Below, in pieces: positions 3,061 through 16,195 of a stretch of DNA of 46,632 bases (positions are counted from its first letter, which is position 1; each line of letters begins with the position of its first letter). Source of the DNA: Treponema sp. Its GTDB lineage: Bacteria > Spirochaetota > Spirochaetia > Treponematales > Treponemataceae. Below the pieces are notes generated by a model. That model made no database searches. It saw only the letters and a list, made by a program, of their open reading frames with translations, and was not told the origin of the DNA. Where the stretch lies: assembly GCA_017386165.1 (NCBI GenBank), contig JAFNQK010000127.1, forward strand, positions 1 to 46,632. The letters run 5' to 3'. The position numbers and the translations under genes are program-made.

Positions 3061-3089
3061 TTGACTTTTTTCTCTATTTAAACAATAAT
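3061..3089 (+). promoter_or_regulatory. gltB promoter
   Basis: TTGACT (3061-3066), 17 nt, AATAAT (3084-3089). A start about 7 nt downstream would fall at 3096-3097, the first base of the conserved leader block, so the transcript would begin directly with the candidate antiterminator hairpin. Confidence 0.55.
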
Positions 3090-3095
3090 GCAGAA

Positions 3096-3170
3096 AACGG
3101 CAAAGAGGTCGTAGATATATTTTTATGGGAATATTATGCCATAATAGTATGTCTACGACCTCTTTTTTTT
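3096..3170 (+). promoter_or_regulatory. gltB leader: ANTAR-type antiterminator candidate and terminator
   Basis: AACGGCAAAGAGGTCGT (3096-3112) is identical to the asnB leader at 15964-15980 (minus). It can fold as ACGGC-[AAAGAG]-GUCGU, a 5-bp stem with a hexaloop that has A at position 1 and G at position 4, the hallmark of ANTAR-bound RNAs. The exclusive alternative is a perfect 14-bp terminator stem, 3102-3115 with 3152-3165, followed by T residues to 3170. Inside the terminator loop TATTAT/ATAATA forms a second small hairpin. Published ANTAR targets carry two such hexaloop hairpins; I find only one here. The hairpin also insulates gltB from transcription of the amidase operon. Confidence 0.6.
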
Positions 3171-3189: not shown

Positions 3190-6100
3190 ATGAATCTTCA
3201 AACTCTTTACGAACCAGTTTTTGAACACGATGCCTGTGGTATTGGTGCTGTCGTAAACATTGATGGATCTAAAACTCACAAAATCGTAGACAATGCTTTA
3301 AGTATTGTAGAAAAACTTGAACATCGTGCCGGAAAAGATGCAAGTGGTGAAACTGGTGACGGTGTTGGTATTCTGGTTCAAATCAGTCATGATTTTTTCA
3401 AGAAAGAAGTTAGCTTTGCCAAGGATATGGGACAGGACCGTGATTACGGTATTGGTATGTTCTTCTTTCCTGCTAATGATTATGAATCAGAAAAGAAGCG
3501 CTTTGAAAAATGCTGTAAGGCTCAGAACTGCGAATTTATCGGATGGCGCAAAGTTCCTGTAAATGAAGAAGTCCTCGGAAAAAAAGCCCGCGACTGTATG
3601 CCTCAGATCTGGCAGGGATTTGTAAAACGCCCTCAGAATGTTGCTCAGGGAATTGAATTTGATAAAATTCTTTACAAAATCCGCATCGATTTTGAAAAAG
3701 AACAGGCTGATTCTAAAGACAAGACCTACGTTTGTTCTCTTTCTTCAAGAACTATCGTTTATAAGGGAATGTTTCTTGTAGACCAGCTCAGAACCTTCTA
3801 TTCAGACCTTAACTCTGCAGAATATACATCTGCTCTTGCTCTCGTACACTCACGATTCTCTACAAATACAAACCCAAGCTGGCAGCGTGCTCATCCTAAC
3901 CGCCTGATTGCACATAACGGCGAAATCAATACTATCCGCGGAAATGCAGACAGAATGCTTGCCCGTGGTGGTGAAATTGATTTGTCTGGTAGTGACTCTG
4001 CAATGCTCGATAATACCCTTGAGTATTACATGATGAATGGAATCGAACTTCCTCTTGCAATGATGATTCTTGTTCCACAGGCATGGCAGCATGATACAAC
4101 TTTAAGTCAAGATAAAAAGGACTTTTATCATTACTGGTCAACTATGATGGAAAGCTGGGACGGTCCTGCTGCCCTTCTCTTTAGCGATGGTGATGTTCTT
4201 GGCGCTACACTGGACAGAAACGGTCTCCGCCCTAGCCGCTATTATATTACAAAAGACGGAACTCTCATTCTCAGCAGTGAAGTTGGTGTTCTCGATATTC
4301 CAGAAAGTGACATCCAGGAAAAGAACCGCCTCATGCCTGGTAGAATGCTTCTCGTAGATACCAAGGCAAAGAAAATCATTTCTGACGACGAAATTAAATC
4401 AAAATATGCCGGTGAACATCCATATGGAGAATGGCTCAGTCAGAATCTTGTTGAACTTGCTTCCCTTAAGATTCCAAACAAAAAGATTCCTGTTTCAACA
4501 CAGCAGGAACGCGACCAGCTTTACCGTGCCTTTGGCTGGAACTACGAAGATGTAAACGAAATGATTCTTCCAATGGCTAAAACTGGTGTAGAACCAATCG
4601 GTTCTATGGGTGTTGATACTCCTCTTGCCGTTTTAAGCGATAACCACCCTGGTCTTTTTGAATACTTTAAACAGCTTTTTGCTCAGGTTACAAACCCTCC
4701 TATCGACAGCCTCCGCGAAAAAACTGTTACTGATACTCGTGTATTTGTTGGTACAGACGGTGATCTCTTGAATGCCAGCGGTAAAAACTGTCATGTTCTC
4801 GAAATTAAAAATCCAATTCTCACTGGAACTGACTTAATCAAAATCAAGGCTCTCGACCAGAAAGGCCTCAGAACCAAGACTATTTCACTATTAATCGATG
4901 AACAGCAGCTTGAACAGGATTCTTCAAAAGAAACCCTTCTTGCTGGTGCCCTCGACAATCTCTTTGCTAAGATTGATGCAGCGTATGAAGAAGGATACAA
5001 CATCGTTGTTCTTTCTGACCGTGGTGTTGATGAAAATCATGCATCAATTCCTTCTCTTCTTGCTGTAAGTGCTGTTGAACAGTATCTGATCCGCACTAAA
5101 AAGCGTACAAAGATTTCAATCATCCTTGAAACTGCAGAAGTACGCAATGTTCATCAGGCAGCTCTCTGTCTCGGATATGGTGCCCGCGCAGTTAATCCAT
5201 ACCTTGCACATGAAGCAATTGCAGAACTTATCGACCAGAAGATTCTTGATAAGGATTACCACACAGCAATCGATGATTACAACAAGGCAATCATCAACGG
5301 TATCGTAAAAATTGCTGCAAAAATGGGTATCAGCACTGTTCAGTCATATCAGAGTGCCCAGATTTTTGAAGCAGTTGGTATTGCCGGTGATGTTGTTGAA
5401 AAGTACTTTACAAATACAGTAAGCCGTGTTGGCGGTATCGGCTTAAAAGAAATCCAGGAAGATATTATCTATCATCACAATAAAGCCTGGAACCCTGACG
5501 GACTTACAGAAAACAGCCACTTGGATTCTACAGGTTATCACAAGATGCGCCGAGGTCCTGGTGCAGAAGACCATCTCTATAATCCAGAATCAATCGTTGC
5601 TTTGCAGCAGGCTACTCAGAACGGTGATTATGAACGATTCAAAGAGTATACTGCAATGATCGATGCAAATGAACATCCACATACATTGCGCGCTATGCTG
5701 GATTTCGATCTTGAAAAAGCCGGCAACGGTATTTCTATCGATGAAGTTGAAAGCGTAGATTCAATCGTTCAGCGTTTCAAGACAGGTGCTATGTCTTACG
5801 GTTCAATCAGCGAAGAAGCCCACAAATGTATGGCAGAAGCTATGAATCACCTCCATGGAAAGAGTAACTCCGGTGAAGGTGGTGAAAAACCAGAACGTCT
5901 TGGAACAATTTATAACTCAGCAATCAAGCAGGTTGCCAGCGGACGCTTTGGCGTAACAGAAGAATATCTTTTGAGCGCACAGGAAATCCAGATTAAGATG
6001 GCTCAGGGTGCAAAACCTGGTGAAGGTGGTCACCTTCCTGGCAAAAAAGTTCACCCATGGATTGCCAAGACAAGATATGCAACTCCTGGTGTATCACTTA

Positions 6101-7674
6101 TCTCGCCTCCACCACACCACGATATTTATTCTATCGAAGACCTGGCTCAGTTGATTTACGACCTCAAGAATGCCAACCGCAAGGCCCGCATCTCTGTAAA
6201 ACTCGTAAGTGAAGCCGGTGTTGGAACAATCGCTGCCGGTGTTGCAAAAGCTGGTGCTCAGGTTATCCTCATCAGTGGTCATGACGGTGGTACCGGTGCT
6301 GCTCCTATTTCTTCTATCCACAATGCCGGACTTCCATGGGAACTTGGACTTGCAGAAACTCACCAGACCCTCATCCAGAACGGTTTACGCGGTCGTGTAG
6401 TAATCGAAACCGACGGTAAACTCATGAGCGGACGCGATGTTGCAATCGCTTGTCTCCTTGGTGCCGAAGAATTTGGTTTTGCAACAACTCCTCTCGTTGT
6501 AATGGGATGCCGCATGATGCGTGCTTGTCAGAGCGATACATGTCCATTTGGTATTGCAACTCAGAACGAACAGCTCCGCAAGAACTTCAAAGGAAAAGCA
6601 GAATATGTTGAAAACTTTATGAAGTTCATTGCCCAGGAACTTCGTGAATATATGGCAAAACTCGGTGTTCGCACAATCGAAGAAATGTGCGGCCGCACAG
6701 ATTTGCTCAAATTAAAAGAAAAACAGGGCTTTAAGCGAGCTTCTCTCGTAGATCTTTCAAGACTTCTTGCTCAGACTACACAGAATCTCCAGGGAGAAGA
6801 TTGTTCTGAATGGAAGAATGACCGCTCTCTCTATGATTTCAAACTGGAATCTACAATCGACCAGAAGCAGCTTCTCGCATGGTTTGAAAGCGTTTCTTCT
6901 AAGAGTGCTTCTCAGAACAGTCTTGATAAGTCAATTGTTATTCAGTCAACAGACCGTACTGCCGGAACAATTCTCGGTAGCGAAATTCAGAAGAAGTTTG
7001 GTACAACCCTTGCCGACGACACCTTTACAGTTAATTTTGAAGGCGGTGCCGGACAGAGCTTTGGTGCCTTTGTTCCAAAGGGACTTACATTGCGCCTCAC
7101 AGGTGAATCAAACGATGCATTTGGTAAGGGTTTAAGCGGCGGTAAACTGGTTGTTAAAAAGGCAGAAGGTTTTAACGGAACTGCTGATAAGAATATCATC
7201 GTAGGAAACGTTGCTTTGTTTGGTGCAACAAGCGGAACTGCATACATAAACGGTGTTGCAGGTGAACGTTTCTGCGTACGCAACAGTGGTGCTACAGTTG
7301 TAGCAGAAGGTTGTGGTGATCACGGTCTTGAATATATGACAGGCGGAACTGCCGTAATTCTCGGTCAGACAGGAAAGAACCTCTGTGCCGGAATGAGTGG
7401 CGGTGTTGCATATATTCTTGATGAAAATCATGAAGTTTATAAGAGATTGAACCGTGAACTTGTTACAATGTACGAACTTGATGATGAAAATACAACTTTG
7501 AAAGAAACAACTGATGAAGAATTACTTCGTTCATTGATTGAAAAGCACTTTGAAGAAACTCAGAGTGTTCGTGCTAAGGAAATCCTTGCTGACTGGGAAC
7601 ACTATCGCACATGTTTTAAGAAGATTATTCCAAATGATTATTTGAAAGTTATGACGGAGGCACGCCATGAATAG
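3190..7674 (+). CDS. gltB: Glutamate synthase (GOGAT) large subunit
   Basis: 1494 aa, full length. Transfers the amide N of glutamine to 2-oxoglutarate, giving two glutamates, in complex with GltD. Domains in order: class II glutamine amidotransferase (about 16-420) with nucleophile Cys16 in HDACGIG, implying removal of a 15-residue propeptide; central domain (about 460-780); FMN-binding synthase domain (about 840-1200) including the MSYGSIS and GEGGE motifs; 3Fe-4S ligands C1107, C1112 and C1117; and a C-terminal GXGXG beta-helix (about 1260-1470). AGGGGG (3176-3181) lies 8 nt before ATG. First gene of gltB-gltD-purF, preceded by the terminator/antiterminator leader. Confidence 0.96.
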   Translation: MNLQTLYEPVFEHDACGIGAVVNIDGSKTHKIVDNALSIVEKLEHRAGKDASGETGDGVGILVQISHDFFKKEVSFAKDMGQDRDYGIGMFFFPANDYESEKKRFEKCCKAQNCEFIGWRKVPVNEEVLGKKARDCMPQIWQGFVKRPQNVAQGIEFDKILYKIRIDFEKEQADSKDKTYVCSLSSRTIVYKGMFLVDQLRTFYSDLNSAEYTSALALVHSRFSTNTNPSWQRAHPNRLIAHNGEINTIRGNADRMLARGGEIDLSGSDSAMLDNTLEYYMMNGIELPLAMMILVPQAWQHDTTLSQDKKDFYHYWSTMMESWDGPAALLFSDGDVLGATLDRNGLRPSRYYITKDGTLILSSEVGVLDIPESDIQEKNRLMPGRMLLVDTKAKKIISDDEIKSKYAGEHPYGEWLSQNLVELASLKIPNKKIPVSTQQERDQLYRAFGWNYEDVNEMILPMAKTGVEPIGSMGVDTPLAVLSDNHPGLFEYFKQLFAQVTNPPIDSLREKTVTDTRVFVGTDGDLLNASGKNCHVLEIKNPILTGTDLIKIKALDQKGLRTKTISLLIDEQQLEQDSSKETLLAGALDNLFAKIDAAYEEGYNIVVLSDRGVDENHASIPSLLAVSAVEQYLIRTKKRTKISIILETAEVRNVHQAALCLGYGARAVNPYLAHEAIAELIDQKILDKDYHTAIDDYNKAIINGIVKIAAKMGISTVQSYQSAQIFEAVGIAGDVVEKYFTNTVSRVGGIGLKEIQEDIIYHHNKAWNPDGLTENSHLDSTGYHKMRRGPGAEDHLYNPESIVALQQATQNGDYERFKEYTAMIDANEHPHTLRAMLDFDLEKAGNGISIDEVESVDSIVQRFKTGAMSYGSISEEAHKCMAEAMNHLHGKSNSGEGGEKPERLGTIYNSAIKQVASGRFGVTEEYLLSAQEIQIKMAQGAKPGEGGHLPGKKVHPWIAKTRYATPGVSLISPPPHHDIYSIEDLAQLIYDLKNANRKARISVKLVSEAGVGTIAAGVAKAGAQVILISGHDGGTGAAPISSIHNAGLPWELGLAETHQTLIQNGLRGRVVIETDGKLMSGRDVAIACLLGAEEFGFATTPLVVMGCRMMRACQSDTCPFGIATQNEQLRKNFKGKAEYVENFMKFIAQELREYMAKLGVRTIEEMCGRTDLLKLKEKQGFKRASLVDLSRLLAQTTQNLQGEDCSEWKNDRSLYDFKLESTIDQKQLLAWFESVSSKSASQNSLDKSIVIQSTDRTAGTILGSEIQKKFGTTLADDTFTVNFEGGAGQSFGAFVPKGLTLRLTGESNDAFGKGLSGGKLVVKKAEGFNGTADKNIIVGNVALFGATSGTAYINGVAGERFCVRNSGATVVAEGCGDHGLEYMTGGTAVILGQTGKNLCAGMSGGVAYILDENHEVYKRLNRELVTMYELDDENTTLKETTDEELLRSLIEKHFEETQSVRAKEILADWEHYRTCFKKIIPNDYLKVMTEARHE

Positions 7675-9235
7675 TCCTACAGGATTTATGGATTTTAAGA
7701 GAATTGAAAACGGAAATATTCCGCCATTGGAAAGAATTACCAATTTTAAGGAATTCCATCCAAAGCTGGACGAAAAAGCTCGCCGTGAGCAGGCCTCTCG
7801 TTGTATGAACTGCGGTGTTCCGATGTGTCAGAGTGCAATCCGCCTCAAGGGAATGGTAACTGGATGCCCTCTTCATAACTACATTCCGGAATGGAATGAT
7901 GCTCTCTACAACGGACAGTTTGATATGGCTGCCTGGAGACTTTTGAAAACTTCAAGTTTTCCTGAATTTACAGGCCGCGTTTGTCCTGCTCTCTGCGAAA
8001 AGGCTTGTAACTGCGGGTGCCCTGATTTAGAAGACAAAAGCATCTTCAATGGTGCCGTAACAATCCACGATAACGAACTATTCATCATCGAAAAAGCCTT
8101 TTCTACAGGTTATATCAAGCCAGAAGTTCCTGCAAAGCGCAGCGGAAAAAAGGTTGCCGTAATCGGTTCAGGTCCAAGTGGTCTTGCAGCTGCTGACTGG
8201 CTCAACCGCCGCGGCCACAGTGTAACCGTATACGAACGCGAAGACAGAGCCGGCGGACTTTTGATGTACGGTATTCCAAATATGAAGCTGGAAAAATCCA
8301 TCATCGAGCGCCGTATCGAACTCATGAAGCAGGAAGGCGTTGAATTTGTATTTAATGCAGATGTAGGAAAGACAATTTCAGCAGAACATATCTACAATGA
8401 ATACGATGCAGTTGCCCTCTGTTGTGGTGCAAAAAAAGCCCGCAAACTCGCTGCCAGCGGAGTTGAAACCAATGGCGTTATGTTTGCGGTAGACTTCCTG
8501 ACTGACGTAACAAAATGTGTTGTTCAGACAGAAACTGCCCTCAACAAAATTGGTACTGAACCAACAAATGAACAGATTCACAAGCTTCTCTTTGAAAAAT
8601 ATGGCATTCAGGTAAATGCAAAGCATGTTGTAATCGTTGGTGGTGGTGATACCGGAAACGACTGCTGTGGTTCTTCAATTCGTCTCGGAGCTGCAAGCGT
8701 AACCCAGATTGAAATGATGCCTTGTCCTCCAGTAGAACGTGCAAAGAATAATCCTTGGCCGGAATGGCCTAAAGTCCTCAAAGTGGACTATGGTGCAGAA
8801 GAATCTATTGCCCGCTTTGGAAAAGACCCTCGTGTTTATGAAACAACTGTAAAAGAAGTAATCAGTGAAAACGGACACATCACTGCTGTTCGTACTGTAG
8901 AAGTAGAATTCAAAGTAATCGACGGAAAGCGTGAACTTGTAGAACGACCTGGAACTGAAAAAGTTCTCCCTTGTGACCTTCTTTTGGTTGCAGCCGGATT
9001 TACAGGTTGTGAAGAATACACTGCACAGGCGTTCGGCGTAGAACTCGGCCAGCGCGGAACAGTTTCTTCTGTTGGAGAAGCAACTCCAGATTTGGCAAGT
9101 TCAAACGGCTATGCCACAAGTAAAGACAAGATCTTTACCGCAGGTGATATGCACAGAGGCCAATCTCTCGTTGTATGGGCAATCGCAGAAGGCCGCGAAT
9201 GTGCTCATCAGATTGATGCTTTCTTAAGAGGTTAA
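7667..9235 (+). CDS. gltD: Glutamate synthase small subunit
   Basis: 522 aa. Supplies electrons from NAD(P)H through FAD and iron-sulfur clusters to GltB. The N-terminal cysteines C46, C49, C54 and C67 and a second group at C106/C110/C114 and nearby match the two 4Fe-4S clusters of the family. FAD fold GSGPSG is at 167-172 and the NAD(P)H fold GGGDTG at 325-330. ACGGAGG (7654-7660) sits 6 nt before an ATG that overlaps the last 8 nt of gltB, which indicates translational coupling and a 1:1 complex. Length and motifs are ordinary for bacterial GltD. Confidence 0.95.
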   Translation: MNSPTGFMDFKRIENGNIPPLERITNFKEFHPKLDEKARREQASRCMNCGVPMCQSAIRLKGMVTGCPLHNYIPEWNDALYNGQFDMAAWRLLKTSSFPEFTGRVCPALCEKACNCGCPDLEDKSIFNGAVTIHDNELFIIEKAFSTGYIKPEVPAKRSGKKVAVIGSGPSGLAAADWLNRRGHSVTVYEREDRAGGLLMYGIPNMKLEKSIIERRIELMKQEGVEFVFNADVGKTISAEHIYNEYDAVALCCGAKKARKLAASGVETNGVMFAVDFLTDVTKCVVQTETALNKIGTEPTNEQIHKLLFEKYGIQVNAKHVVIVGGGDTGNDCCGSSIRLGAASVTQIEMMPCPPVERAKNNPWPEWPKVLKVDYGAEESIARFGKDPRVYETTVKEVISENGHITAVRTVEVEFKVIDGKRELVERPGTEKVLPCDLLLVAAGFTGCEEYTAQAFGVELGQRGTVSSVGEATPDLASSNGYATSKDKIFTAGDMHRGQSLVVWAIAEGRECAHQIDAFLRG

Positions 9236-10691: not shown

Positions 10692-11258
10692 TTATTCGTA
10701 CATTTTGATTATGCTCTGGGCGATATCAATGCGCTTTGAGCTTGTGTCCATTGCCTGTTTTTCCAGGTAATGGTGGGCCTGAGCTTCTGTCATTCCCTTC
10801 TTTTCTACAAGAATGAGCTTTGCCCGGTTTACAAGACGTATTTCTTCCATCTTAGATTTTAGCTTAATTGTCTGGTTGTTGAGTGCCTGTACTTTATAAT
10901 GAACTGCTATGGCAACCTTAATCATATTGTAAAAATATGAGGGTTCCAGAGGCTTTGTAACTGTCAAGACCCCATAACTTTCTACGCGATAAGAAACCTG
11001 TTCAAAATTTTCGCTGTTTACTAAAAGCAAAACTGTAGAATCTGTATCAGAAACATTGATAGCAAAATCTGTGCTTGAAGAATTAGTTGAATCTGCAATA
11101 ATAAAATCATAGTTTCTTGTTTCAGAAAGCCTTGATGCTTCGTAAAAGTCATCTGTAAATGACAGCTTAAAAAGCGGCGCAATTAAAAAGGCTTTGATTA
11201 GAGAAACAGTTTTATTGTCATCCGAAACAAGCAGAACGCTGTAACTTTCCTGATTCAT
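10692..11258 (-). CDS. ANTAR-domain response regulator (NasT/EutV-like)
   Basis: 188 aa. Receiver-like domain about 5-120: acidic pair D13/D14, candidate phospho-acceptor D56 and conserved K102 in TKP are all present. A coiled linker (about 122-140) leads to a C-terminal ANTAR RNA-binding domain (about 135-187) with the LVNRAKLIL, LEKQAM and IAQSII landmarks. Such proteins bind hexaloop hairpins in nascent leaders and prevent termination. It is the last gene of asnB-pyrG-glnA, 1 nt after glnA, with no strong Shine-Dalgarno site, so it is probably coupled. Likely targets are the matching leaders of asnB and gltB. No partner histidine kinase is visible here, and the activating signal is unknown. 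Confidence 0.88.
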   Translation of the reverse strand: MNQESYSVLLVSDDNKTVSLIKAFLIAPLFKLSFTDDFYEASRLSETRNYDFIIADSTNSSSTDFAINVSDTDSTVLLLVNSENFEQVSYRVESYGVLTVTKPLEPSYFYNMIKVAIAVHYKVQALNNQTIKLKSKMEEIRLVNRAKLILVEKKGMTEAQAHHYLEKQAMDTSSKRIDIAQSIIKMYE

Positions 11259-11259
11259 T

Positions 11260-12477
11260 CTATACTTCTATTTCACCAATAGCAGATTTTACAAAGTCGC
11301 TCTGTTTTGCGATTTCATGTGCATCATCCAAAGACTGAGGAAGAGTCTTTAGGCCCATGCGGCTGGCAATTTTGTTGTCAAAAAGATTTTCTTCTGTTTC
11401 TGCCGGACATGGAATCTTGTTCTTAATTCCGTCGATTGCAGCTTCAATCAAAAGAGCAATTGCAAGATAAGGGTTACAGAGAGGATCCGGAGAACGAACT
11501 TCGAGACGGGTTGTGTTTTTGCTTGCAGGAACTCGAATCAAAGTAGCACGGTTTTCTTTTCCCCAGGAAATATATTTTGGAGCTTTGCTTGAACCAAGTC
11601 TTACATAAGAATTATATGACGGGTTTAAGAAATAAGTCATTTCTTCGATGTGCTTGAGGATGCCCCCAAGAATATAAGGAAGAAGGTTTTCTTCATCTTT
11701 AGCGCCATTTTCAGACGGGAGACCGGCTTTTTTGTAGGAAATGTTAATGTGCATTCCGTTTCCGGCTTCACCTGCAAGAGGTTTTGGAGAGAAATCTGCA
11801 TACAAACCGTTTGCGCTTGCTTTTGTATTTACAATCCACTTAAAGGTTTCAACATTGTCTGCAGCTGTCAACGCATCTGCGTAATGAAAGTCGATTTCGT
11901 TCTGACCTGGGCCTTCTTCGTGGTGGCTGGCTTCTGGTGTGATACCCATCTGTTCAAGGGTAAAGCAGATATCGCGGCGGATGTTTTCACCGTGGTCTTC
12001 TGGTGCAATATCCATGTAGCCGGCCTTATCAAAGGTTTCTTTTGTAGGTTCTCCTTTTTCATCGAGTTTAAAGAGATAGAATTCGATTTCAGTTCCTACC
12101 ATGAGTTCGATGCCGCATTCATCCTTGAGACGGCGACATGCATTTTTAAGGAGATTACGGCTGTCTTTTGAATAAGGCTTTCCGTCAGAAGTCTGAATAT
12201 TACAGAACATTCTGACAACTTTTCCTGTCATCGGGCGCCATGGAATAATTGCGAGGGTACTTGGATCTGGGAACAAGAATAAGTCGGATTTTTCTGGAGT
12301 TTCAAAGCCATAAACGCTGGAAGCATCAAAGGCAATTCCTTCTCTAAAGGCTCTGTCCAGCTCGCTTGGCATAATAGAAATATTCTTTTGCTTTCCTTTT
12401 ACATCAAAGAATGCCAGGCGGATAAATTTTACATCTTCTTCGTTTATAAAATCCAAAACTTCTTCTTGTGTGTACAT
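11260..12477 (-). CDS. glnA: Glutamine synthetase, type I, short form
   Basis: Makes glutamine from glutamate, ammonia and ATP. GSI landmarks are present: VGTEIEFYL and HHEEGPGQNEIDF (metal sites), GNGMHINIS, and the APKYISWG...NRATLIRVP region. At 405 aa it is shorter than the usual 440-470, mainly in the C-terminal part, and I see no NLYDLPPEE-type adenylylation site; this resembles GSI-alpha enzymes. An upstream in-frame ATG exists at 12483, but GAGG (12485-12488) is only 1 nt from it and 7 nt from the ATG at 12477, so I chose 12477. Third gene of the operon, directly followed by the ANTAR regulator. Confidence 0.93.
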   Translation of the reverse strand: MYTQEEVLDFINEEDVKFIRLAFFDVKGKQKNISIMPSELDRAFREGIAFDASSVYGFETPEKSDLFLFPDPSTLAIIPWRPMTGKVVRMFCNIQTSDGKPYSKDSRNLLKNACRRLKDECGIELMVGTEIEFYLFKLDEKGEPTKETFDKAGYMDIAPEDHGENIRRDICFTLEQMGITPEASHHEEGPGQNEIDFHYADALTAADNVETFKWIVNTKASANGLYADFSPKPLAGEAGNGMHINISYKKAGLPSENGAKDEENLLPYILGGILKHIEEMTYFLNPSYNSYVRLGSSKAPKYISWGKENRATLIRVPASKNTTRLEVRSPDPLCNPYLAIALLIEAAIDGIKNKIPCPAETEENLFDNKIASRMGLKTLPQSLDDAHEIAKQSDFVKSAIGEIEV

Positions 12478-12504
12478 CTGCATACCTCGTTTTTTTATTC
12501 TAAA

Positions 12505-14100
12505 CTATTCCTCGCATGCCCGCAAGAATTCTACGAAAAGTGGACTTGGCTTGTTTGGACGGCTCTTAAATTCCGGATGGAACTGTACGCCTACATGGAA
12601 CTGTCCATCGATTTCTACAGCTTCTACCAGAGTTTCGTCCGGGCTTGTTCCACTGATTACAAGACCTGCAGCCTTCATCTGTTCGCGGTAATCGTTGTTA
12701 AATTCGTAGCGATGACGGTGTCTTTCCTGGATATTATCTGACTTATATGCTTTTTCAAGCTTTGTGCCGTGAGTGACTTTACATGGATAGCTTCCAAGAC
12801 GCATTGTTCCGCCTTTGATTACTCCAGCTTGATCTTTCATAAGGTCGATAACAGGGTTTTCGCACATTTCGTCAAATTCGCGGCTGTTTGCATTTTCAAG
12901 TTTTAATACATTTCGGGCAAATTCGATTACGGCAATCTGCATTCCGAGACAGATTCCAAAATATGGAAGTTTATGGGTTCTGGCATATTTGCAGGAATTA
13001 ATCATACCTTCAATACCGCGCTGGCCAAATCCACCAGGGAGAATAATTCCATTGCAGTCCTTAAAGATTTCTGGAGCGGTTTCGTCGGTTACGCTGTCAC
13101 TGTCTACCCATTTGATTTTTACGTTTTTGCCGGTTTCAAAACTAGCATGATTTAAGCTTTCTACGATACTAAGATATGAATCGTGGAGCTTTACATATTT
13201 TCCGACGAGAGCAACCTGTGTGCAGCCTTTTCTGGAATGGATTTTTTCAATCATTTTTGACCAGTCTGCAAGAGCTGGATAATCTCCTCTTGTATTTTCA
13301 AGACCAAGGTCTCGGCATACAACATCGTCCATATTCTGGCTGTGAAGCATCAATGGAACTTCATAGAGACTTTCGCAAGTTGTATTATTTATTACACAGT
13401 CTTCTGAAACATTGCAGAAAAGGCTGATCTTTTTGCGGATTTCGATAGGAATTTCTTTGTCACAGCGGGCAACAATGATGTCCGGATGGATTCCAACTGC
13501 CATTAATTCTTTAACGGAATGCTGTGTCGGCTTACTCTTAAATTCATCTGAACCGCTGATGTATGGAACAAGACATACATGAATGAAAAGGCAGTTTCTT
13601 TGGCCTACTTCAAGAGAAAGCTGACGGATTGCTTCCAGAAATGGCTGGCTTTCGATATCGCCGATTGTACCACCGATTTCTACGATGCTTACATCAGCCT
13701 GACTTACTTCTGCATTCTTTAAAATGAAATCTTTGATTTCGTTTGTTACATGAGGAATAATCTGAACGGTTTCTCCAAGATATTCACCCTGGCGTTCTTT
13801 GTTGAGAACATTCCAGTATACTCGACCGCTGGTGAGATTTGAGTATTTTGTAAGGTTTTCATCGATAAAGCGTTCGTAGTGTCCAAGGTCAAGATCGGTT
13901 TCGGCACCATCATCAGTTACAAATACTTCACCATGCTGAAATGGACTCATGGTACCCGGGTCAACATTCATGTATGGGTCTAATTTCTGTGAAGCAATTT
14001 TTAAACCGCGGCATTTTAAAAGACGTCCAAGACTTGCCGCTGTGATTCCTTTTCCTAAGCCGCTTACAACTCCACCTGTAACAAAAATAAATTTACTCAT
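12505..14100 (-). CDS. pyrG: CTP synthase
   Basis: 531 aa, normal length. Converts UTP to CTP with glutamine or ammonia and ATP. The N-terminal synthetase domain starts with [12 protein letters not shown] (P-loop about 13-18). The C-terminal class I glutaminase domain has nucleophile C384 in GICLGMQ and a His-Pro-Glu late in the domain. GGAG lies about 9 nt before the ATG. It sits 14 nt after asnB and 27 nt before glnA, placing a third glutamine-linked enzyme in the operon. Confidence 0.95.
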
Positions 14101-14114
14101 TTTTTATGACTCCA

Positions 14115-15884
14115 TTAATATGCATCATTGTGCACTCCCTTGATGGCTCTTCCGCTAGGCTCATCAGTATTTTTCCATGCTGCGTCCCATTCAAGGGCTT
14201 TGGCAGTACTGCAGGCTACTCCTGCTTCGTGTGGTACGCATTTGGCTGCACTGTCGCTTGGGAATAAGCGTGAATAAATTTCTCTGTAATAATATTCTTC
14301 TTTTGTTTTTGGAGGATTTACCGGGAAACGGTTCTCGCGGCGGGCAAATTCTGCGTCAGAAACCTTTTCTTCTGTAATCTTTTTAAGTGTATCGATCCAG
14401 TTGTATCCTACACCGTCGCTGAACTGTTCCTTCTGTCTCCAGCAAATGTTTTCAGGAAGCATGTCTTCAAAGGCTTTGCGCAAAATCCACTTTTCAATGC
14501 GCTGTTTGCCGTCAGGGAGACGAAGGTTCATCTTATCACCAGGGTTAAGGCTCATTGCGATATCGATAAAGTCTTTGTCGAGGAAAGGAACACGGCCTTC
14601 TACACCCCATGCCATAAGGCTCTTGTTAGCTCTCAGACAGTCGTAAAGGTGAAGCTTGCTCATTTTGCGAACAAGTTCTTCATGAAATTCCTTTGCATCT
14701 GGCGCCTTATGGAAATAGAGATAACCGCCAAAGAGTTCGTCGCTGCCTTCTCCACTGAGAACCATCTTGATTCCCATTGATTTGATAACCCGGGCAAGAA
14801 GATACATTGGAGTGCTGGCGCGTACAGTTGTGATATCATAAGTTTCGATATGATAAATTACGTCAGGGAGAGCATCCAGAGCTTCCTGAATTGTAAAATG
14901 AACTTCGTGGTGAACTGTTCCAATGTAATCAGCAGCTTTTTGTGCCGCAATTAAGTCAGGAGAACCTTCTAGACCTACGGCAAAGCTGTGGAGCTGAGGC
15001 CACCAGGCACTTTCTTTTCCGTCAGTTTCGATTCGTTTTTTGCTGAATTTCTGTGTAATAGCAGCAATAATTGAAGAATCAAGACCACCGCTGAGCAAAA
15101 CACCATAAGGAACATCACTCATGAGTTGTGCTTTTACAGCTTCTTCCAAGCCGTTCTTTACTTTTTCAATTACAGAAGGGTTTATAATTTCGCCTTTATC
15201 ATCAGTTGCTCTTGGAGAAGCTTTTACATTGTCATAACTTTCCCAGTCTCGTTTATACCAGAGCTGTGGTTTTGCGTTGTTCTTGTCAGATTCTGACCAT
15301 AAAAAGTGTCCGTTAGGGAATTCTTCGATTGTTGTGCATTCCCCTTCCAGAGCCTTTAATTCGCTTGCAACATAATAGCGGCCGTTCTTATCCCAACCTT
15401 GATACAGAGGAATTACACCAATTTCATCCCGGGCAATGAGATATGAATCTCTTTCGCTGTCGTACAATGCAAATGCAAAGATTCCGGACAGTTTTTCTAT
15501 CATTTTAGAAAAGTCTCCGCCGTTAGCAATGCATTCTTTATAAAGAGGAATGATTACTTCACAATCACTTCCTGTGCGGAATTTATAATTATTTTCAAGT
15601 GCCTGTCTCAAAGATTTGTGATTGTATATTTCACCGTTTGCAGCAAGAATGATTTTTCCATCATCGCTGACAAGAGGCTGTTTTCCACTGAGAGGATCAA
15701 CAATACTGAGGCGTTCATGACTCAAGATTGCATTATTACCTGTGTAGACGCCGCTCCAGTCCGGACCACGATGTCTAATTTTCTTTGACATCTTAATTAC
15801 CTGAGATCTAAGTTCTTCCTTAAGACCTTCCGCAATCGGTGAACTACCGCTGTTTAAATCAAAGCAACCTACAAAACCGCACAT
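14115..15884 (-). CDS. asnB: Asparagine synthetase, glutamine-hydrolysing
   Basis: 589 aa. Makes asparagine from aspartate, glutamine and ATP. The N-terminal Ntn glutaminase has catalytic Cys2 directly after Met and the RHRGPD motif (38-43). The C-terminal synthetase domain has the pyrophosphate loop SGGLDSS (265-271) and SGEGSDELFGGY. Length is close to the E. coli-type enzyme. GGAGG lies 7 nt before ATG. It is the first gene of asnB-pyrG-glnA-ANTAR, preceded by a leader whose 17-nt core is identical to that of gltB. The C-terminal 30 residues are less conserved in appearance. Confidence 0.95.
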   Translation of the reverse strand: MCGFVGCFDLNSGSSPIAEGLKEELRSQVIKMSKKIRHRGPDWSGVYTGNNAILSHERLSIVDPLSGKQPLVSDDGKIILAANGEIYNHKSLRQALENNYKFRTGSDCEVIIPLYKECIANGGDFSKMIEKLSGIFAFALYDSERDSYLIARDEIGVIPLYQGWDKNGRYYVASELKALEGECTTIEEFPNGHFLWSESDKNNAKPQLWYKRDWESYDNVKASPRATDDKGEIINPSVIEKVKNGLEEAVKAQLMSDVPYGVLLSGGLDSSIIAAITQKFSKKRIETDGKESAWWPQLHSFAVGLEGSPDLIAAQKAADYIGTVHHEVHFTIQEALDALPDVIYHIETYDITTVRASTPMYLLARVIKSMGIKMVLSGEGSDELFGGYLYFHKAPDAKEFHEELVRKMSKLHLYDCLRANKSLMAWGVEGRVPFLDKDFIDIAMSLNPGDKMNLRLPDGKQRIEKWILRKAFEDMLPENICWRQKEQFSDGVGYNWIDTLKKITEEKVSDAEFARRENRFPVNPPKTKEEYYYREIYSRLFPSDSAAKCVPHEAGVACSTAKALEWDAAWKNTDEPSGRAIKGVHNDAY

Positions 15885-15905: not shown

Positions 15906-15980
15906 AAAAAAAGGCCGTGAACAAACGATACTTCGCCCCTAAAGGGAAAAGCATTATTTATTCACGACCTCTTTGCCGTT
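15906..15980 (-). promoter_or_regulatory. asnB leader: ANTAR-type antiterminator candidate and terminator
   Basis: Read on the minus strand, AACGGCAAAGAGGTCGT (15980-15964) repeats the gltB leader block exactly and can form the same ACGGC-[AAAGAG]-GUCGU hexaloop hairpin. Overlapping it is a terminator stem, GGTCGTGAA (15969-15961) with TTCACGGCC (15921-15913, one G-U), followed by seven T residues (15912-15906). The loop holds a small CCC/GGG hairpin. The terminator's downstream arm differs from that of gltB but still pairs, so the conserved part is precisely what the alternative hairpin needs. I found no convincing promoter just upstream; transcription may come from the tRNA promoter. Confidence 0.6.
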
Positions 15981-15983
15981 ATA

Positions 15984-16007
15984 TTCATTACGAATCTACT
16001 GGGCCAT
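15984..16007 (-). repeat. Degenerate copy of tRNA 3' end plus flank
   Basis: This 24-nt segment matches 16063-16086, the tRNA-Ile acceptor 3' strand ATGGCCC and 17 nt beyond it, at 20 of 24 positions. It lies directly upstream of the asnB leader. It may be what remains of a second tandem tRNA gene or of an attachment-site duplication; no integrase is nearby. Confidence 0.5.
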
Positions 16008-16078
16008 ACATCGCATTCGCTCCGTTTGGCCTATTGGAAGTGATTTACGTATAGTTTCTCACTTCGTTACAAAACTAT

Positions 16079-16151
<73 letters not shown>

Positions 16152-16165
16152 GCTAATTACTAGCT

Positions 16166-16195
16166 AATATAGCATAAATTTAGGGCTTAGGTCAA
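16166..16195 (-). promoter_or_regulatory. tRNA-Ile promoter
   Basis: On the minus strand TTGACC (16195-16190), 18 nt, TATATT (16171-16166). The predicted start is 7-8 nt before the tRNA 5' end. Read-through could also drive the asnB operon. Confidence 0.65.

Follow-up and report, generated by a model that had tools for sequence, protein, structure and literature searches.

The closest described systems are those of eutP/EutV, nasF/NasR and amiE/AmiR, whose RNA targets have in common with the Treponema leaders described here a hexaloop with A at position 1 and G at position 4 (A1/G4) and an overlap with the 5′ arm of a terminator (PMC3369931, PMC8934654). Antitermination by EutV depends on both hexaloops and on a short linker (PMC3369931, PMC8934654). 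A single hexaloop was identified as the minimal EutV-binding motif (Walshe et al. 2022; PMC8934654), and the role of single hexaloops, as well as the reason why two are needed for antitermination, was left open in that EutV structure paper (PMC8934654). Hexaloops of the A1/G4 type, like the Treponema motif, are also bound by ANTAR proteins in actinobacterial RNAs; these differ, however, in being dual stem-loops that often lie near ribosome-binding sites and are thought to act on translation (PMC8164766). In Desulfotomaculum, putative ANTAR substrates lie upstream of glutamate synthase genes, nitrogen-assimilation targets as in Treponema, but they were found with a two-hairpin model, which would miss single-hairpin leaders (PMC3369931).

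Two large published searches for ANTAR targets both demanded two stem-loops, so that a single-hairpin group would have escaped them. In our literature search (most subscription papers lay outside it), no description of a single-hexaloop attenuator or of ANTAR control in Treponema was found. In Clostridium saccharobutylicum, the gene for the ANTAR protein NitR lies beside glnA (glnA-nitR), and NitR targets glnA and gltAB. The adjacency to glnA is shared with Treponema, and the targets are like those proposed there, a likeness that concerns the genes and not the RNA target.

Results

A block shared by the gltB and asnB leaders

The stretch of Treponema sp. DNA analyzed here, termed the window, is 46,632 nt long (Table 1). 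The 17-nt block AACGGCAAAGAGGTCGT was present in exact copies at 3096–3112 on the forward strand and 15964–15980 on the reverse strand and nowhere else in the window, where the third match carried three mismatches (0.12 expected by chance). A search of the whole 2.7 Mb genome for the exact 14-nt core of the block returned just two sites, the gltB and asnB leaders. The initial annotation had placed the block once on each strand, in front of these two genes, and the window and genome searches agree with it.

Table 1. Features of the gltB and asnB loci in the window.
Feature	Position	Strand	Basis and remarks
gltB promoter TTGACT-17-AATAAT (predicted)	3061..3089	+	10/12 consensus matches; spacing to hairpin same in most relatives
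gltB single ANTAR-type hexaloop hairpin ACGGC[AAAGAG]GUCGU (P2-like)	3097..3112	+	Folding; covariation in relatives
gltB intrinsic terminator	3102..3170	+	5′ arm overlaps hairpin loop and 3′ strand; U tract 3163–3170
gltB, glutamate synthase large subunit	3190..7674	+	Pfam, NCBIfam
gltD, glutamate synthase small subunit, gltB operon	7667..9235	+	NCBIfam TIGR01317
ANTAR RNA-binding regulator, receiver-like N-terminal domain	10692..11258	−	PF03861; only ANTAR gene of the genome; EutV-like model
glnA, glutamine synthetase, 1 nt before ANTAR gene	11260..12483	−	Pfam; linkage kept in 30/30 loci
pyrG, CTP synthase, asnB operon	12505..14100	−	Pfam
asnB, asparagine synthase B, gene 1 of asnB-pyrG-glnA-ANTAR	14115..15884	−	NCBIfam NF006949
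asnB intrinsic terminator	15906..15974	−	5′ arm overlaps asnB hairpin
asnB single ANTAR-type hexaloop hairpin	15964..15979	−	Block match, folding; unit in asnB leaders of 19/20 ANTAR-bearing relatives
tRNA-Met (CAU), directly upstream of asnB leader	16079..16151	−	tRNA gene call
Promoter TTGACC-18-TATATT (predicted) before tRNA-Met	16166..16195	−	Best promoter in asnB upstream region

As had been proposed from the first reading of the sequence, the gltB promoter is positioned to start the RNA at the first base of the hairpin: the predicted +1 lies at about 3096, which is the first base of the block. Taken alone, the first 16–17 nt of the leader folded as ACGGC[AAAGAG]GUCGU with about −4 to −5 kcal/mol, in keeping with the fold suggested earlier. 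The whole leader, in turn, gave a fold of −38.6 kcal/mol (z −9.5), a long intrinsic terminator. The overlap of the block with the 5′ arm of a terminator, claimed for both leaders, was reproduced by the folds and terminator calls. In gltB, the first loop base of the short hairpin is also the first base of the terminator 5′ arm, and the two structures are therefore mutually exclusive.

No promoter of its own was found directly in front of the asnB block. The predicted promoter upstream of the tRNA-Met gene probably also drives asnB. The tail of this tRNA gene, TGGCCCARTAG at 16075–16085 (−), was repeated about 80 nt further on, at 15996–16006 (−), between the tRNA and the asnB hairpin; the duplicate may be what is left of a lost tRNA copy or of an insertion.

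A search for a third site in the same genome identified the amtB leader, where the hairpin reads ACAGC[AAAGAG]GUUGU and the stem change relative to gltB is compensatory. A second unit follows the first in this leader.

Hexaloop–terminator units in related genomes

A search of relatives had been suggested at the outset, and it found the motif before gltB, asnB, amtB and glutamine synthetase genes. The genus sample comprised 146 genomes scored for the ANTAR gene and 142 scored for gltB, from which 80 gltB regions (1.2 Mb) containing 335 strong terminators were taken. At 110 of the 335, a hairpin with a loop of six bases overlapped the terminator 5′ arm; other loop sizes were rare by comparison (five bases, 6; seven, 9; four, 23; eight, 29). 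The six-base loops had A1 in 92/110 and G4 in 96/110.

When a C–G closing pair was required, 161 hexaloop-plus-terminator units were collected across the Treponema relatives. They stood before gltB (74), asnB (21), the GSIII gene glnN (18), amtB (10), gltD (9), pyrG (8) and carA (6), with a few units before purF, glnA and genes for a solute-binding protein, a PucR-type regulator, DapF and a chemotaxis-like protein (names from Pfam on cluster representatives, the chemotaxis-like one assigned by eye). Nearly all of the units stand before glutamine or ammonia genes. The units seen before the PucR-type regulator gene and the chemotaxis-receptor-like gene hint at a wider regulon.

Many leaders, including that of amtB in the genome studied here, carried two complete hexaloop–terminator units in series, an arrangement that could sharpen control like a double gate. 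In the second gltB unit of four leaders, the terminator 5′ arm was built from the 5′ strand of the hairpin and not from its 3′ strand, a reversed register in which mutual exclusion of the two folds is still kept. Three leaders shared a recurring variant, ACGAC[AAAGAA or AACGAA]GCCGT, with an A–C mismatch beside the closing pair.

Nothing relevant was matched by Rfam in the window or the leaders. A covariance model of the hairpin only (22 positions) was unspecific genome-wide, giving similar counts of weak matches in ANTAR-less genomes, and its matches were informative solely when they overlapped a terminator; among the 12 best hairpin loci of ANTAR-less genomes, there were no units.

The stem covaries

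Conservation of the ACGGC stem and of the hexaloop bases in relatives had been put forward as a check on the original reading, and both were kept, with strong covariation. In a 64-sequence alignment, the five-pair stem was paired in 84.7% of cells, against 66.0% after shuffling, and 83 cells were changed on both sides. The covariation score was 0.615 as compared with 0.264 in shuffles, with none of 500 shuffles reaching it, and no slid register of this alignment came close to the true one. The 64 rows were hand-picked from candidates, which favors the percentage paired, and the fairer test is that on a set for which sequence was the sole criterion (C[AG]NNGNNG at a terminator arm). Here, stem pairs 2 to 5 were above all 1000 partner shuffles. 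At three stem positions of the same set, G–U pairs outnumbered A–C combinations by 68 to 17, an indication that the folded molecule is RNA of this strand. The stems ranged from ACGGC/GUCGU through GCAUC/GAUGC to AAAC/GUUU.

One hairpin, usually at the predicted transcript start

Transcript 5′ ends in all leaders were predicted from promoters. Promoter scores exceeded the 95th percentile of background for 123 of 134 first units, and in 112 of the 134 the hairpin lay 5–14 nt past the −10 element (best promoter within 180 nt upstream). In the 123 leaders, the median distance from the predicted +1 to the hairpin was 4 nt, and no A..G.. hexaloop that could serve as P1 was found in this interval in any of them. 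In the 60 nt upstream of first units, hairpins with an A..G.. hexaloop occurred in 7 of 134 cases, a frequency at chance level (shuffle mean 4.1).

The same code was applied to a Pantoea plasmid leader that stands before nitrate genes adjoining nasR and served as the positive control. Both P1, gctttgcc[AACGGC]ggtaaagc, and P2, tggat[AAAGGC]gtcca, were detected, the latter overlapping a terminator, and the method thus sees a P1 where one is present. The P2 of this nasF-type leader is almost the same element as the Treponema hairpin. No dual-hexaloop control leader was found in the ANTAR regions of Rhizobium, Sinorhizobium, Burkholderia, Caballeronia and Monoglobus plasmids.

The initial annotation had offered two readings of the solitary hexaloop, a one-hairpin variant and a variant dependent on the RNA 5′ end. 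The first is supported by the single hexaloop without P1 in 123 leaders. The second is supported in part: most first units coincide with the predicted +1, but the asnB unit of the window and 26 tandem second units do not. Strict 5′-end dependence was not adopted, as the asnB unit lies behind tRNA-Met and each of the 26 second units comes after a complete terminator. As far as predicted starts can tell, the single hairpin is the rule and the 5′ position is common, not obligatory.

The same single hexaloop, a few bases past the −10 element, was found in other families of the class and at clostridial ANTAR loci, so that the layout is not the quirk of one genus. In Clostridia with an ANTAR gene of this kind, single-hexaloop attenuators were observed before glnN, pyrG and other glutamine-related genes. 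Linkage of glnA to the ANTAR gene was directly seen in part of the clostridial loci, for example in Monoglobus, and the remaining clostridial ANTAR genes are presumed to be linked to glnA as well.

The ANTAR gene and its product

The genome has one ANTAR gene, whose C-terminal ANTAR domain scored 58.2 bits against a cut-off of 27.3; in relatives, the gene followed glnA directly at all 30 loci. It was present in 126/146 genomes of the genus and gltB in 123/142, 13 genomes being without both (Fisher P ~ 6e−10, relatedness not corrected). The ANTAR-less genomes were without this asnB and mostly without gltB. The asnB leader unit was found in 19 of 20 ANTAR-bearing genomes. Although pyrG itself occurs in nearly all genomes, the pyrG leader unit was found in 5/20 ANTAR-bearing and 0/20 ANTAR-less ones. 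Three genomes scored as ANTAR-less nevertheless had the gltB motif, and their lack of the gene probably reflects assembly gaps.

An AlphaFold model of the protein (pLDDT 91.6) comprised a receiver-like domain, a long helix and the ANTAR helices. It matched the EutV–RNA complex 6ww6 (TM 0.80) and AmiR (TM 0.69), and also EutV alone and Rv1626. Met172 of EutV is conserved, and the key contact Tyr164 is replaced by His, as it is at that position in AmiR. The receiver Asp56 was nearly invariant, but in many relatives another residue (Ser, Thr, Asn, Cys or Trp) stood in place of the switch Lys, which makes control of the protein by phosphorylation doubtful. No kinase gene beside the ANTAR gene was seen among the proteins scanned in the window.

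Discussion

The anatomy, conservation, covariation and gene sets of the units are established here. The leaders fail the dual-hexaloop definition that was used (an upstream P1 with a linker of 2–25 nt), but they have every other RNA feature of an ANTAR antiterminator that was tested. The interpretation that we favor with good confidence is that the gltB, asnB and amtB leaders are single-hexaloop attenuators under the glnA-linked ANTAR protein, which very probably holds the hairpin open against the terminator. By default, the nascent RNA would fold into the strong intrinsic terminator and transcription would stop. Under a shortage of nitrogen or glutamine, the ANTAR protein, then active, would bind A1 and G4 in a single hexaloop, that of a short hairpin at the RNA 5′ end or close to it. 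Because the hairpin and the terminator 5′ arm share bases, holding the hairpin would prevent termination, and gltBD, asnB-pyrG-glnA-ANTAR and amtB would be transcribed. The direction of control and the signal are what we infer; the latter is probably the glutamine status of the cell, which may be sensed by way of glutamine synthetase, a guess that the operon layout prompts.

The leaders might instead be ANTAR targets in which a second hexaloop is supplied unrecognized, by a cryptic P1, by another tandem unit or by a second transcript. Speaking for this are the need of EutV antitermination for two hexaloops joined by a short linker (PMC3369931, PMC8934654) and the 26 units that come after another in tandem. 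Note, however, that no A..G.. hexaloop was found between the predicted +1 and the hairpin in any of the 123 leaders, where the median room is 4 nt, that the 60 nt upstream are at chance level, that most leaders have a single unit and that tandem hexaloops lie a whole terminator apart, far over the EutV linker limit; a hidden partner is therefore unlikely. The hairpin could also be read by something other than the ANTAR protein, such as a different RNA-binding protein or slippage at the start site of the kind seen in Bacillus pyrG. Binding of the ANTAR protein to the hairpin is what we infer, and gltB units are present in three genomes scored as ANTAR-less. Against this, the A1/G4 hexaloop, the terminator overlap and the single glnA-linked ANTAR gene favor ANTAR, the hairpin resembles the Pantoea P2 and no Rfam family was matched, so that such a reader seems quite improbable.

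There is very little to be said for a DNA operator, with a repressor on an inverted repeat at +1 and an incidental RNA hairpin: the repeat does lie at the predicted start site, but its arm sequences vary with complementarity kept, the excess of G–U over A–C is what RNA of this strand predicts, the hairpin goes together with terminators, and promoters are distant from the second units. Plain constitutive terminators, alike by duplication and without control, would account for the 17 identical nucleotides in gltB and asnB and for a loop and 3′ strand that belong to the terminator arm. They would not account for a 5′ strand, ACGGC, that lies outside the terminator stem and still covaries with the 3′ strand. 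Moreover, the units stand between promoter and central nitrogen genes, so that termination must sometimes be overridden, and we give this explanation almost no weight.

If the leaders are indeed single-hexaloop ANTAR attenuators, they differ from the eutP/EutV, nasF/NasR and amiE/AmiR systems in being without P1 and in having the hairpin at or a few bases from the predicted start; the Treponema protein would also serve numerous operons of a nitrogen regulon, frequently led by two complete tandem units. The clostridial ANTAR loci examined here have single hexaloops too, a point of comparison for NitR. It is likely that the leaders belong to a widespread, unrecognized class of ANTAR antiterminators. 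In this class, a single hexaloop, in most cases the structure that the transcript forms first, would suffice against termination, and glnA-linked ANTAR proteins of Spirochaetota and Clostridia would use it to run whole nitrogen regulons.

Such a class would run against the rule of two hexaloops for ANTAR antitermination. With more than 100 natural one-hairpin leaders, each tied to a terminator, the question of what single hexaloops do and why EutV needs two becomes directly testable. For Treponema and many gut Clostridia, it would mean a nitrogen circuit in which a glnA-linked ANTAR protein controls glutamine synthetase, GOGAT, ammonium uptake and glutamine amidotransferases, and in the window the protein would also control its own operon, in positive feedback.
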